Source: Zobellia alginiliquefaciens (GTDB taxonomy: Bacteria > Bacteroidota > Bacteroidia > Flavobacteriales > Flavobacteriaceae). Taken from it: a stretch of DNA of 64,000 nt. The stretch spans positions 1,798,001-1,862,000 of the forward strand of contig NZ_CP119758.1 in NCBI RefSeq assembly GCF_029323795.1. The letters run 5' to 3'. Under the pieces are notes generated by a model. That model made no database searches. It saw only the letters and a list, made by a program, of their open reading frames with translations, and had not been told where the DNA came from. The first letter of the stretch is position 1. Every line of letters begins with the position of its first letter. Of this stretch, positions 38,804 through 45,262 are shown in pieces. The translations under genes and the position numbers were made by a program.

Positions 38804-39338
38804 GCTATACCAATGTTTTAAGTTTGTAAAGAATAATTTAAGTGGGCAAAGATAAGAAATATTGAGGATTTTTTTAATAACGGTAGAACGGAAGCAAAAA
38901 GACACACATCAACCGTAAACTACCTTGGGTAGATCCAAGAAACAATAAAATAGAATACACTTAGATTTCAAGTAAAGCATTGGAATATTCAACTTGATTA
39001 TCGAGTAAAAAATAAAAAAGAGCCCTGACAAAATCAAGGCTCTTTATTGACCGTTCCAATTTTTCTTCTTCATAGCATCTTTAAAGAACATTAAAAAAGG
39101 AAACGATCACCATTGTCCCCTAAAACTAAAAAGGGGGCACTTATTTGAGTTAGTTTCCGATTAATTACCGGAACAATATTTTCAATAAGATACTACACCG
39201 CCTTCAAGGTTGCGTAATAGGAACAACTTTTTTAATAAACACTTATGTTTTAGACGTGTAACAAACAGATTCCTTACCAACCTTTATATTATTTATATAA
39301 ATTTTAACGCATTGCGAACACACAAAAAACTAGCTGCC
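38804..39338. other. Gene-free region between trhO and recA with an orphan hairpin
   Basis: No supported ORF or tRNA is found here. A terminator-like hairpin at 39017-39045 has a stem AAAGAGCC/GGCTCTTT, with A/T runs on both sides, but no gene ends at it on either strand. A weak CCCC/GGGG hairpin lies near 39117-39138. A short RNA ending at the hairpin is possible but no promoter match was seen. Confidence 0.45.
39017..39045. terminator. Orphan terminator-like hairpin
   Basis: The stem AAAGAGCC/GGCTCTTT extends with TGA/TCA around a C-A mismatch (a U-G wobble on the minus strand). T runs flank it on both strands. It lies about 210 bases upstream of trhO and 370 upstream of recA, with no gene to end. 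Confidence 0.5.
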
Positions 39339-40500: not shown

Positions 40501-40577
40501 CGCTTTAACCTAAGCTTAAGAATACTTCACGCAACCCTTGTAACAATTTTCCATCTATTATAAAAAATTTGAATACT

Positions 40578-41006
40578 ATGGGTAAATTGTACCTTAAGCT
40601 TTTAACAATTGCATGTGCGCTAACTACAGTATCTTGTAGTTTAAATGATGACGATATAAACTTTAAGTATACGCCTTTAGAAATTACAGGAGCCACCTTG
40701 CCCGATACCTTTGAACTCGGAGAAGTATATGACGTAAACGTTAACATTCTAAGAACTAACGATTGTAATTTATTTGATCGGTTTGATGTGACCCGTTCTT
40801 TTACGGACACTAGTCAAATTAGGACCGTTTCTGCCATTGGTATTGCTTTAGAGAAAGATTCTTGCGCCGAGGCTAATGATGAAATTGAAGATTTATTTCA
40901 GTTTGAAGTTCTTTATACCGAACCTTATATTTTTAGATTTTATACGGGCGATGATGTTGAGGGAGAAGCTGAATTTATAGAAATTGAAGTGCCAGTGAAA
41001 GAATAA
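40578..41006 (+). CDS. Hypothetical lipoprotein
   Basis: A 142-residue protein with a lipoprotein signal: hydrophobic LLTIACALTTVS followed by Cys20. The mature part is acidic and appears beta-rich (EITGATLPDTFELGEVYDVNVNILRTNDC...). Two cysteines, in NDCNLF and KDSCAE, could form a disulfide. I start at the ATG at 40578 rather than the TTG nine bases before. No family is recognised. It lies between recA and an ECF sigma gene, oriented with both. Confidence 0.75.
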   Translation: MGKLYLKLLTIACALTTVSCSLNDDDINFKYTPLEITGATLPDTFELGEVYDVNVNILRTNDCNLFDRFDVTRSFTDTSQIRTVSAIGIALEKDSCAEANDEIEDLFQFEVLYTEPYIFRFYTGDDVEGEAEFIEIEVPVKE

Positions 41007-41099: not shown

Positions 41100-41672
41100 T
41101 TGGGTCTAGAAGAACTCATTATTAATTGCAAGAAAGGAAACCGCAAGGCACAAGAACAATTGTATCGCGATTATTCTCGCACCTTGTTCGGTATCTGCTT
41201 AAAGTATTCGCGTAACCGCACGGAAGCCGAAGACAATTTGCATGACAGTTTTTTGGTCATTTATGAAAAAGTGGGGCAGTTTAAGCACAAGGGCTCTTTT
41301 GAAGGGTGGCTAAAGCGTATTACCGTCAATACCGTACTTCAAAAATACCGTAAAGATGAGCCTTTAAGCTTAGTAAGCGATGCAATTGAAGATACAGAAA
41401 CGGTATTGGATAGCAGCTATGAAAATTTAAGTTTAGACGTATTACTAAAACACATTCAAGAATTACCGGATAAATACCGCCTTACATTCAACCTATATGT
41501 TTTAGACGGGTATACCCACAAAGAAATCAGCGAGCTTTTAGGTACCACCCAGGGCACTTCAAAAAGTAATCTGGCCAGAGCACGCAAGTTGTTAAAAGAA
41601 AAAATAGAGATTACAAAGAATAAAGCCATCATTGGCCTACTCATCTTCCTTTTGATAGGATTTTGCGTTTGA
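41100..41672 (+). CDS. ECF-type RNA polymerase sigma factor with hydrophobic C-terminal tail
   Basis: A 190-residue ECF sigma factor that redirects RNA polymerase to a special set of promoters. Region 2 is LYRDYSRTLFGICLKYSRNRTEAEDNLHDSF... (about 21-55) and region 4 is ELPDKYRLTFNLYVLDGYTHKEISELLGTT (about 121-150). After the DNA-binding helix the protein ends in a hydrophobic stretch at about 176-190 (AIIGLLIFLLIGFCV), an unusual tail that could hold it at the membrane. TTG is the only reasonable start codon. The gene at 41729 is very likely its regulator. Confidence 0.88.
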   Translation: MGLEELIINCKKGNRKAQEQLYRDYSRTLFGICLKYSRNRTEAEDNLHDSFLVIYEKVGQFKHKGSFEGWLKRITVNTVLQKYRKDEPLSLVSDAIEDTETVLDSSYENLSLDVLLKHIQELPDKYRLTFNLYVLDGYTHKEISELLGTTQGTSKSNLARARKLLKEKIEITKNKAIIGLLIFLLIGFCV

Positions 41673-41728
41673 CCTGTGAAAAAGAGTACATCAAAAAAAC
41701 AAAATACCAAGTACCTAAGCATTGAATA

Positions 41729-43324
41729 ATGAGTAAAAAAAATATACAAAACCTGTTTCAGGAGAAGTTTCGCGACTTTGAGGAGGTGCCGGACCCAAGG
41801 GTCTGGACATCCATTGAAGCCTCTCTGAACAAGAAGAAAAAGAAAAGGGCCTTTCCTATCTGGTGGACCCTGGGCGGAGCTGCGGCGGCATTGGTTATTG
41901 GATTAGTTGCTTTCTATCCCTTTGAGACTAAAAACGAAGCTCCTAGTAGTTTCACAGATGTTGACCAAAAGGAAAATACAATTGAAAACACCCTTGAAAA
42001 TACCAATGAGTTTATTTTAGACAACACAGACGAAGTTGCTGAAGGTGAGTCTAGTATATCCACAAATTCTGAAATAACCCCAGAGTCCTCAAATAAGGAA
42101 ACAGAGCACAAAACTACGACTACTTTGAATGCTGATGAGATTCAAACTAATTCTCAAAAAAGTACGTACGAAAAGTCCGGTTTGAAATCAAATATAACTT
42201 CAGAAGTTGCTCAAACAGAAAAAAAACCAAATGGTACCCAAAATGCTAGAACCATTACGAGTACCTCTAACAAAGCTGACTATGCTTCGAACCTGGAGAA
42301 AGACAATCAACCTATAACAGCATCAAACCATTCTCCATCAAACGAAGAGCATATAGAAACATCAAAAACTAATGTTAGTGATGCAATCGGCATAGCTTCA
42401 AACATAAACAATGGAGATAGCCCAGCAACAAAACTGCGAAAAGAAGATGGTCCAGCTTCAGTCTCCGAAACAGAAATAGCAGAAAATATCACGTCCGTTC
42501 AAAAAGAGAAAGAGGAAAACGAAAAGAAATCCATTTTTGATGAAATTGAAGCTGAGGAAAAAATTGTAAGCACTGAAAAAACCGGTCGTTGGTCTGCAGG
42601 ACCTAATGTTGCTCCCGTTTATTACAATGCAATTGGTGACGGTTCGCCAGTAAATTCCATTTTTAATGAAAATTCTAAATCCGGGAATACTAACCTTAGC
42701 TACGGTCTAACCGTCGCCTATGCTTTAAATGATAAATTAAGCATACGTTCCGGGGTAAATAAAGTAGACTATGGGTATGACACCAACGATGTTGGGTTTA
42801 CCTCTACCTTACAAGAAGCCTCCTCAGAAAAAATACAGAATCTTAACTATGCCAGTACTGCAAAAAACATAGTGGTCACCGGCCAAAATAGTAATTTTAA
42901 TAGTCTGGCAAATGCCGATGCTATGTTTGCTTTTGAAGTCACAGACGCTAATCCTAACCAAAGAAACGGCACCATGGCACAGCAATTTGGATATTTAGAA
43001 GTGCCTTTAGAGCTTGACTATGCATTGATAGATCGCAAATTTGGCTTGAATATACTAGGCGGTGTAAGCTCATTGTTTCTAATAGACAACTCCGTAACCC
43101 TTACATCGGGGGAGTTAACAACCGAAATAGGTGAAGCGAACAATGTGAACTCCGTTAACTTTAGTACCAACATTGGGTTTGGTGTTAATTACAAATTCAC
43201 TCCTAAAATACGTTTTAACGTAGAACCAGTTTTTAAATATCAATTGAATACCTTCTCAGATGTATCCGGAGATTTCAATCCGTTTACCATTGGGGTTTAC
43301 AGTGGACTTAATTTTAAATTCTAA
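41729..43324 (+). CDS. Putative trans-envelope protein: cytoplasmic segment, one helix, long linker, beta-barrel
   Basis: A 531-residue protein of unusual layout. Residues 1-41 are cytoplasmic and carry FEEVPDPRVWTSIEASL, a motif of the kind found at the start of anti-sigma-like membrane proteins in Bacteroidota, followed by a basic KKKKKR. One helix spans about 44-65. Residues 66-285 are a low-complexity linker rich in Glu, Asn, Ser and Thr. From 286 (GRWSAGPNVAPVYY) to the end the sequence looks like an outer-membrane barrel closing with YSGLNFKF. It follows the ECF sigma gene by 56 bases. I infer that it controls the sigma factor; no target or signal can be named. Confidence 0.75.
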   Translation: MSKKNIQNLFQEKFRDFEEVPDPRVWTSIEASLNKKKKKRAFPIWWTLGGAAAALVIGLVAFYPFETKNEAPSSFTDVDQKENTIENTLENTNEFILDNTDEVAEGESSISTNSEITPESSNKETEHKTTTTLNADEIQTNSQKSTYEKSGLKSNITSEVAQTEKKPNGTQNARTITSTSNKADYASNLEKDNQPITASNHSPSNEEHIETSKTNVSDAIGIASNINNGDSPATKLRKEDGPASVSETEIAENITSVQKEKEENEKKSIFDEIEAEEKIVSTEKTGRWSAGPNVAPVYYNAIGDGSPVNSIFNENSKSGNTNLSYGLTVAYALNDKLSIRSGVNKVDYGYDTNDVGFTSTLQEASSEKIQNLNYASTAKNIVVTGQNSNFNSLANADAMFAFEVTDANPNQRNGTMAQQFGYLEVPLELDYALIDRKFGLNILGGVSSLFLIDNSVTLTSGELTTEIGEANNVNSVNFSTNIGFGVNYKFTPKIRFNVEPVFKYQLNTFSDVSGDFNPFTIGVYSGLNFKF

Positions 43325-43381
43325 ATTTATTCTCAGCCCTTCTTTATTTTTAGGTAGTTTGCACACTGTAAAAACTAATTG

Positions 43382-44266
43382 ATGAAACAGAAGCTTCAAA
43401 TTTTTAAGGCGGTGGCATTTCACTCTAGTTTCACAAAAGCGGCAGAGCAACTTTTTATATCACAGCCAGCCGTATCCAAAGCCATCCGTACTATTGAAGA
43501 TGAATACAAAACCACTTTCTTTCTTAGAAAACGGAATTCAATTGAACTTACAGAAGACGGAAAAGCTTTTCTAGTCTATGCCAATAGAATACTAGATATA
43601 CATTCCGAAATAGAAAATCAGTTTCTGCATCAGAAAGAACATATTCCCGATTCCATTCACTTTGGAGCAAGTACCACCTTAATCAACCATATAGTTCCAA
43701 AGATTATTGCGAAATTTAGAACGCAGCATCCACATACCCATTTTGATATAAAAAGTGGCAATTCAGAAGAAATAGAAGAATCCATTCTAAACCAACAATT
43801 AAATTTTGGCATCACGGAAGGCAGCAACACCAACCGCAAACTGCACTATAAAAAATTTATAAAAGACGAAATTGTACTGGTTACCAGCGTCAAAAATTCG
43901 GCTTTCAAACAAAATACGATACCCACAGAGACCCTTCAGAAACTACCTATGATCGAGCGGGAAATGGGTTCCGGTACCAGAGAAATTATCTATGATTTTC
44001 TAAAAGAGCATCAGATTAAAAAACTGAACAACATTGTTACCCTAAATAGCACCGAAGCTATTAAACATTATCTCTACCACTCGGATACTTTTGCCCTACT
44101 ATCCATTCATGCTATAAATGAAGACCTCATTGCCAATAAATTGAAAATTATAGACATTAAGAATATTACCATTGAACGTTGGTTTTACTTTGTTTCTAGA
44201 ACAGGCTATCAATCTAACGTAATGGACTACTTTGAAAAATTCGCCAGAAACAACTATAACTTTTAG
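43382..44266 (+). CDS. LysR-type transcriptional regulator
   Basis: A 294-residue LysR regulator. The N-terminal winged helix-turn-helix is LQIFKAVAFHSSFTKAAEQLFISQPAVSKAIRTIE, followed by a linker helix and a two-lobed substrate-binding domain. It is close in layout to CysL/YeiE types, which respond to sulfur compounds. The TTG just before the ATG at 43382 is ignored. The yeiH gene lies 75 bases downstream in the same direction and is the probable target. Confidence 0.92.
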   Translation: MKQKLQIFKAVAFHSSFTKAAEQLFISQPAVSKAIRTIEDEYKTTFFLRKRNSIELTEDGKAFLVYANRILDIHSEIENQFLHQKEHIPDSIHFGASTTLINHIVPKIIAKFRTQHPHTHFDIKSGNSEEIEESILNQQLNFGITEGSNTNRKLHYKKFIKDEIVLVTSVKNSAFKQNTIPTETLQKLPMIEREMGSGTREIIYDFLKEHQIKKLNNIVTLNSTEAIKHYLYHSDTFALLSIHAINEDLIANKLKIIDIKNITIERWFYFVSRTGYQSNVMDYFEKFARNNYNF

Positions 44267-44288
44267 TTATTTCATATAGCATATTAAA

Positions 44289-44321
44289 TTGCTTAAAAGT
44301 AATTTAACGCCCCTATTTTTG
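44289..44321 (+). promoter_or_regulatory. Promoter of yeiH
   Basis: TTG (44289-44291), a 22-bp spacer and TATTTTTG (44314-44321) precede the yeiH ATG at 44342. It would allow expression separate from the LysR gene. Confidence 0.6.
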
Positions 44322-44341
44322 TATCAGTAAATGAAGTTGAT

Positions 44342-45262
44342 ATGAAAGATAGAATGACAAAAGCAATATTTATAGGATTAGCATTATTAGTAGTTAGCGG
44401 ATGGGTAAATAGCCCTACGGCACTACTTCTTGGTTTTGGTTTTACCTTATTTTTTAATAACCCGTTTAAGGCATATTGCCATAAGGCCATTCATTCCTTT
44501 CTTAAGATATCTGTAGTAGGTTTAGGGTTTGGTATGTTCATAAAAGAAACCTTGGAGACCAGTAAAGAAGGTTTTACCTTAACTTTCTTATCCATTCTTT
44601 TAACCGTAAGCCTAGGCTTTCTCCTCACAAAACTTCTAAAATTAGACACCAAACTAGGACATTTGATTACCTCTGGAACTTCAGTTTGTGGTGGTAGTGC
44701 CATTGCGGCCATTTCTCCCGTAATCAACGCAAAAAGTAAAAGCATAAGTATTGCCTTAGGCGTCGTGTTCCTGTTAAACTCTGTAGCTTTATTTGTTTTT
44801 CCGGCTGTTGGGCATTACCTGCACCTCACTCAACACCAATTTGGACTCTGGTGTGCTGTGGCAATACATGATACAAGTTCTGTGGTTGGTGCCGCTTTAG
44901 GCTATGGTGATGAAGCATTAAGAATTGCTACTACCGTGAAGTTATCGCGTATGCTCTGGATTATTCCACTATCCCTTCTCTCTATGTTTGTTTTTAAAAC
45001 CAAAGGCGAAAAAGTGAAGTGGCCGTATTTCATCCTTCTATTTATTGGAGCGATACTCGTAAACAGTTACCACCTTATCCCTGCACCGGCAACTAGTCTT
45101 CTAGTATCAGGCTCTAAACATCTTTTGGTATTGACCTTGTTTCTAGTGGGTTCGACTATTTCTATAAACGACTTGAAGAAAACAGGTATCCGTCCCATGG
45201 TTTTGGCCGTTCTTCTTTGGATATTTATTTCAGTACTATCCCTAGTCTATATATTATACTAG
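44342..45262 (+). CDS. yeiH: YeiH family putative sulfate exporter
   Basis: A 306-residue inner-membrane protein with about ten helices, of the YeiH/PSE (UPF0324) family. The signature TSGTSVCGGSAIAAISPVI and the AIHDTSSVVGAALGYG segment are clear. Members are annotated as putative sulfate or sulfite exporters, but direct evidence is limited. Linkage to a LysR regulator is the usual arrangement. Its last four bases overlap the end of the converging plsC-like gene. Confidence 0.92.
   Translation: MKDRMTKAIFIGLALLVVSGWVNSPTALLLGFGFTLFFNNPFKAYCHKAIHSFLKISVVGLGFGMFIKETLETSKEGFTLTFLSILLTVSLGFLLTKLLKLDTKLGHLITSGTSVCGGSAIAAISPVINAKSKSISIALGVVFLLNSVALFVFPAVGHYLHLTQHQFGLWCAVAIHDTSSVVGAALGYGDEALRIATTVKLSRMLWIIPLSLLSMFVFKTKGEKVKWPYFILLFIGAILVNSYHLIPAPATSLLVSGSKHLLVLTLFLVGSTISINDLKKTGIRPMVLAVLLWIFISVLSLVYILY

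Follow-up and report, generated by a model that had tools for sequence, protein, structure and literature searches.

An ECF sigma factor and a predicted two-membrane anti-sigma protein of the Reo/Dma kind in Zobellia and other Flavobacteriaceae

Within a 64,000-nucleotide stretch of the Zobellia alginiliquefaciens genome (contig NZ_CP119758.1, positions 1,798,001 to 1,862,000; referred to as the window), an ECF sigma factor gene is followed by a gene for an anti-sigma protein that appears to connect the cytoplasmic sigma factor, across the periplasm, with a barrel in the outer membrane, a reading that is well supported by the evidence given below. This arrangement is not new, because it has been published for Reo (PMC9308784, PMC13114119) and for Dma1-3 (PMC13088901), and the Zobellia pair is a new member of this known class in a new branch. 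New in the flavobacterial system are a conserved lipoprotein gene, a sharp ECF promoter, two unlinked lipoprotein sites and an RNA. As judged from sequence and models, we consider it likely that these elements together form a Reo/Dma-type envelope-stress circuit that resembles that of sigma-E, with one arm of lipoproteins and another formed by a small RNA. The sensor class, so far known from work on a few Bacteroidales of the gut, is thereby extended to marine Flavobacteriaceae, among which it is widespread.

A conserved operon, its promoter and a candidate small RNA

The coordinates and reading frames first assigned to the sigma and anti-sigma genes were correct (Table 1), and the two genes are 56 nt apart. 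The sigma factor matched Sigma70_r2 and r4_2 of Pfam well over cut-off, and its orthologues were 80–100% identical within the genus and about 50–75% identical across the family. Protein searches of the Z. alginiliquefaciens genome yielded 33 ECF sigma matches and a single copy of the sigma/anti-sigma pair. A survey of the gene pair, which had been suggested alongside the initial annotation, found it conserved across Flavobacteriaceae, the sigma and barrel anti-sigma genes being adjacent in 117 of the 120 loci fetched from the family and the order. Two of the three remaining loci contained the sigma gene followed by a short, barrel-less anti-sigma-like gene, and the third was a contig ending before the sigma gene.

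Table 1. Features of the sigma/anti-sigma locus (window coordinates)
Feature	Coordinates	Strand	Remarks
Predicted small RNA	39014..39187	-	about 174 nt; between UPF0176 and recA
Divergent ECF-promoter-like site, ACGCAACCTTGAAGGCGGTGTAGTATCT	39188..39215	-	one -10 mismatch; in front of the RNA
Predicted ECF promoter of operon, ACGCAACCCTTGTAACAATTTTCCATCT	40529..40556	+	motif conserved at same position in orthologous loci
Small lipoprotein gene, first of three-gene operon	40569..41006	+	SCSLNDDD lipobox; likely true start ATG 40578
ECF sigma factor gene, Das/EcfO-like	41100..41672	+	190 aa; TTG start; Pfam, orthologues and tail analysis
Anti-sigma/barrel protein gene	41729..43324	+	531 aa; Pfam, conservation, AlphaFold2, Foldseek, fusion model and profile match

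A homologue of the lipoprotein was found in 109 of the 117 loci, nearly always directly 5′ of the pair, and the gene order in the named genomes was recA-lipoprotein-sigma-anti-sigma; in the clade around Zobellia the system is syntenic with recA. The lipoprotein had no Pfam match, and its assignment to NigD was rejected after a profile comparison with NigD_N/NigD_C aligned 22 columns only.

The lipoprotein gene was preceded in 86 of 93 loci by the promoter ACGCAACC-N-TT-N12-CATCT or a close form of it, usually 10–25 nt from the start codon, while shuffled sequences shared at most 4 word pairs. The 27-nt core of this promoter occurred three times as an exact match in the 5.07-Mb genome. Besides the operon site, these matches were located at 2850816–2850842 (-) and 3678124–3678150 (-) (loci L242 and L243), where they precede lipoprotein genes of 155 and 174 aa whose starts lie 16 and 32 nt away. 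Of 60 genomes across the family, 47 contained exact matches to the pattern, about 120 in all, and the reversed pattern had none. Among 15 sampled sites that were followed by a readable gene, the product scored as a lipoprotein in 12 cases (four of these being the operon's own lipoprotein), compared to 6% of background ORFs. The sharpness of this promoter offers a testable regulon for the sensor class outside the gut.

On the far side of recA, a second site of this kind faces a predicted small RNA. Using a relaxed pattern, a similar promoter pointing away from recA was found before this RNA in about 59 of 80 named loci, while the relaxed-pattern site of locus L124 was judged false; in some Zobellia species, this promoter is weaker still than the window copy with its -10 mismatch. 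The RNA has three conserved helices, the last of which is an intrinsic terminator that was present in 59 of 60 sequences, 110–178 nt past the promoter. Compensatory changes were seen in 22 of the 26 predicted pairs across 32 sequences, which exceeded all 500 shuffles and every slid control, and the fold z of the window copy was -4.84. No Rfam family matched the candidate, and strong matches to its model were confined to the clade around Zobellia, where all nine of those checked adjoin recA. It might be the counterpart of an RNA described from F. psychrophilum, such as Rfp11 or Rfp18 (PMC9723704). A conserved micro-ORF was considered as well, as many copies begin with MKKK; its frame is not conserved, and the element was consequently taken as an RNA. 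Its sequence makes it a good candidate for a small RNA, probably one that the sigma/anti-sigma system controls, and the conserved promoter class thus points to a conserved small RNA.

Assigning the promoter to the pair's own sigma factor, and not to another ECF sigma, follows the logic of autoregulation. Many ECF sigmas share a -35 box containing AAC, and the promoter and RNA might instead belong to a different ECF sigma, having come to lie around the operon by chance. In F. psychrophilum, the composite ECF motif SM6 is indeed thought to serve several sigmas (PMC9723704). However, the -10 box of SM6 is CGT and not CATCT, and the flavobacterial site stands directly before the first gene in those 86 of 93 orthologous operons, as autoregulation expects, making the involvement of a different sigma unlikely.

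Anatomy of the anti-sigma protein

The anti-sigma protein begins with a cytoplasmic helical domain (residues 1–40), and AlphaFold2 modelling with 38 homologues placed helices at residues 4–15, 23–38 and 44–62. The last of these is the single hydrophobic membrane helix and is preceded by KKKKKR. It is followed by a linker of 223 residues, rich in E, T, S and N and with a net charge of -23, of which residues 64–265 received a pLDDT of about 30 and are disordered. The C-terminal part was modelled as a barrel of eight long strands within residues 288–530, mostly at a pLDDT of about 90. Pfam likewise returned an OMP_b-brl_2 match over cut-off (residues 286–497), and the best PDB matches to the barrel in Foldseek were OmpA, NspA, OmpW and Ail. 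The single membrane helix, the linker of some 220 residues and the barrel of about 245 residues noted in the initial annotation were thereby borne out. The same annotation had noted an anti-sigma-like motif in the cytoplasmic segment, and this is not a chance resemblance: around VPDPRVWTSIEASL, W26 and L33 do not vary among the 38 homologues and P21 hardly does, and the conserved helices carry a P-x4-W-x2-I motif.

How the N-terminal helices might contact the sigma factor was approached through a relative (locus L040) in which the stop codon of the sigma gene is in frame with the start of the anti-sigma gene, so that a read-through product could be modelled. The AlphaFold2 model comprised the L040 sigma factor, 19 junction residues and the first 75 anti-sigma residues (92 homologue rows); it is an artificial chain of a relative, joining two genes through a stop, and was judged by pLDDT, pTM and fold matches. 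The anti-sigma helices, which scored a pLDDT of 64–73 without the sigma factor, reached 91–97 in this fusion, with a pTM of 0.76. Comparison with the inhibited complexes SigW-RsiW, RpoE-NepR, SigK-RskA and CnrH-CnrY gave TM scores of 0.53–0.63, whereas polymerase-bound ECF sigmas gave 0.32–0.42, and AlgU-MucA and sigma-E/RseA fell in between (0.44–0.47). The predicted fold of the L040 pair thus resembles inhibited complexes more than polymerase-bound sigmas.

Averaged over the orthologues, identity to the window protein was 54% for the N-terminal domain and helix, 53% for the barrel and 16% for the linker, the length of which ranged from 106 to 300 residues. A disordered linker of 223 residues and such low identity could in principle be cut as a matter of course, leaving the anti-sigma in the inner membrane and the barrel in the outer membrane as separate proteins with unrelated jobs, and barrel-less relatives of 206–263 aa behind sigma genes indicate that the N-terminal part can occur on its own. 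However, barrel and N-terminal domain were fused in 117 of 120 loci and also in Bacteroidaceae, and a span across both membranes is the published view in Bacteroides, so that we regard routine separation of the two parts as improbable. Cleavage as an activating event, on the other hand, would fit the preferred Reo/Dma-kind circuit too.

The initial annotation had further proposed that the chain might report the width of the envelope. Although anchorage in both membranes might in principle allow one chain to sense their distance, a role of the linker as a ruler is very unlikely because its length varies from 106 to 300 residues; it is moreover disordered and unconserved (16% mean identity, against 53–54% at both ends), which suits a loose tether.

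The proposal that a single chain across both membranes replaces the relay of Fec-type systems agreed with the predictions, which combine a sigma-binding domain, a single helix and a barrel in one protein, in the absence of a FecR domain or receptor. FecI-FecR-FecA likewise couples an ECF sigma to an outer-membrane barrel, but it does so with three proteins, including a FecR domain and a TonB-dependent receptor, none of which was seen at the Zobellia pair. Control of the sigma factor by such a receptor and a FecR-like protein, with the barrel protein being incidental, can practically be set aside: the sigma factor does score on Bacteroidetes ECF models such as TIGR02985, but weakly, under cut-off and as on many others, while the second protein lacks a FecR domain in Pfam, no receptor gene was present among the neighbours listed or searched around the pair, and across the family the sigma factor tracks with the barrel protein and not with a receptor.

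Comparison with known systems

The closest parallels are the Reo and Dma systems of Bacteroidaceae. The Das-Dma pairs of Bacteroides thetaiotaomicron, which reportedly are the subject of Pardue 2024 PNAS, are reported to have a role in vesicle formation. Das1-Dma1 and Das2-Dma2 share both architecture and gene order with the Zobellia pair (PMC13088901). The Bacteroidaceae loci fetched included about 14 pairs with separate sigma and anti-sigma-barrel genes, and in about 11 cases sigma factor, membrane helix and barrel were fused in a single ORF. In hhalign, the flavobacterial barrel matched a set of 12 Bacteroidaceae Dma-like proteins, not including Dma1 and Dma2 themselves, at 99.5% (E 1e-22, 200 columns), and the anti-sigma N-terminal domain was also detected in Bacteroidaceae relatives by HMM. 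In five Bacteroidaceae loci (L232, L234, L237, L238 and L239), a divergent gene for a NigD-family lipoprotein adjoins the sigma/anti-sigma pair.

According to PMC13114119, Reo of Phocaeicola vulgatus spans five compartments and represses EcfO, which in turn is required for NigD surface lipoproteins; Evans 2022 (PMC9308784) links the Reo/EcfO response to envelope damage. EcfO-Reo of Bacteroides fragilis and P. vulgatus resembles the Zobellia system in having a sigma gene followed by a two-membrane barrel anti-sigma, in the prominence of surface lipoproteins (NigD) in the regulon, and in self-activation of the sigma gene (PMC9308784, PMC13114119). The regulatory logic therefore appears to be the same, although the flavobacterial lipoprotein, a 140-aa family without demonstrable relation to NigD, is not recognisably NigD. 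Zobellia differs further in the hydrophobic tail of its sigma factor, in its small-RNA arm and in the synteny with recA, the latter two not being reported for EcfO-Reo in the accessible portions of PMC9308784 and PMC13114119.

A more remote parallel lies in Escherichia coli. There, sigma-E is an autoregulated envelope-stress ECF sigma with a small-RNA arm (MicA, RybB and MicL), and its anti-sigma RseA is confined to the inner membrane, where a signal from a separate outer-membrane protein leads to its cleavage. Autoregulation and a small-RNA arm are likewise predicted for Zobellia, but there the anti-sigma itself includes the barrel.

In the loci inspected from distant Bacteroidota, the anti-sigma N-terminal domain was nearly always encoded directly 3′ of a sigma gene, followed by C-terminal parts that vary from a barrel to none or to other long regions. 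Four barrel-less relatives of 182–263 aa lie behind sigma genes (L069, L071, L187 and L236), and a NigD gene adjoins that of L236. Five loci (L188-L192) encode proteins of 750–1100 aa behind sigma genes, sharing the N-terminal domain and helix and ending in a long C-terminus without barrel match; in L189, this part was judged by eye to contain a von Willebrand-type domain.

The sigma tail and the proposed circuit

As first noted, the sigma factor ends in 15 hydrophobic residues without charge (AIIGLLIFLLIGFCV), and this end proved to be a real conserved protein motif: [AS]IIG followed by hydrophobics was kept while the codons varied among 43 loci (near-duplicates included). On a tree of 112 sequences, the presence of the tail required two changes compared to a mean of 32 after shuffling, which we interpret as a single gain in the Maribacter-Zobellia clade with a single loss in a Cellulophaga. 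The apolar run spans 15 residues in most Zobellia and 7–12 residues in many relatives, where charges often follow. With an apolar run of only 7–15 residues, the tail might be a membrane anchor, but it could equally well serve as a docking peptide or as a degradation tag. In the fused sigma-helix proteins of Bacteroidaceae, a hydrophobic helix directly follows region 4, at the same point as the Zobellia tail, and these sigma-helix-barrel fusions indicate that membrane-tethered sigma factors exist in the same wider family. Dma3 shares this position of the hydrophobic segment, as seen in Dma3-like fusions, but is one polypeptide in which the sigma factor is fused to the membrane-spanning chain, as opposed to two genes in Zobellia (PMC13088901). 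Such Dma3-like single-ORF sigma-helix-linker-barrel proteins were found at L203, L209, L214, L216, L219-L223, L228 and L229, and the N-terminal anti-sigma domain was not detected in them.

From the anatomy, conservation, promoter motif and RNA covariation read in the sequences, we infer the topology in cells, the repression of the sigma factor, the signal, its release and the function of the RNA as follows. The anti-sigma protein is predicted to start in the cytoplasm, to pass the inner membrane by its helix and the periplasm by its linker, and to end as an eight-stranded barrel in the outer membrane. The helices near its N-terminus would grip the ECF sigma between regions 2 and 4, thus keeping it off RNA polymerase. 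Failure of barrel assembly or a disturbance of the outer membrane would remove or alter the anti-sigma, proteolysis being the simplest route, and thereby free the sigma factor. Free sigma would then read promoters of the conserved class and raise expression of its own operon, a few unlinked lipoproteins and the small RNA. By analogy with the sigma-E small RNAs of E. coli, we would guess that this RNA adjusts envelope mRNAs. The circuit touches on the open question of how a protein held in both membranes still signals outer-membrane damage.

More tentatively, the two-membrane anti-sigma of Flavobacteriaceae may control a sigma-E-like regulon with a conserved RNA arm, while in the Maribacter-Zobellia clade the tail would dock the sigma factor next to the anti-sigma helix at the inner membrane, half-way to the fused Dma3. 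This joint proposal takes the RNA as a new family whose ECF promoter is of the same class as that of the operon.

Directly 3′ of the anti-sigma gene, the window encodes a LysR regulator and a PF03601 membrane protein (43379–45262, +); among the named loci, these genes occurred in the neighbourhood of the pair only in Zobellia and Euzebyella.
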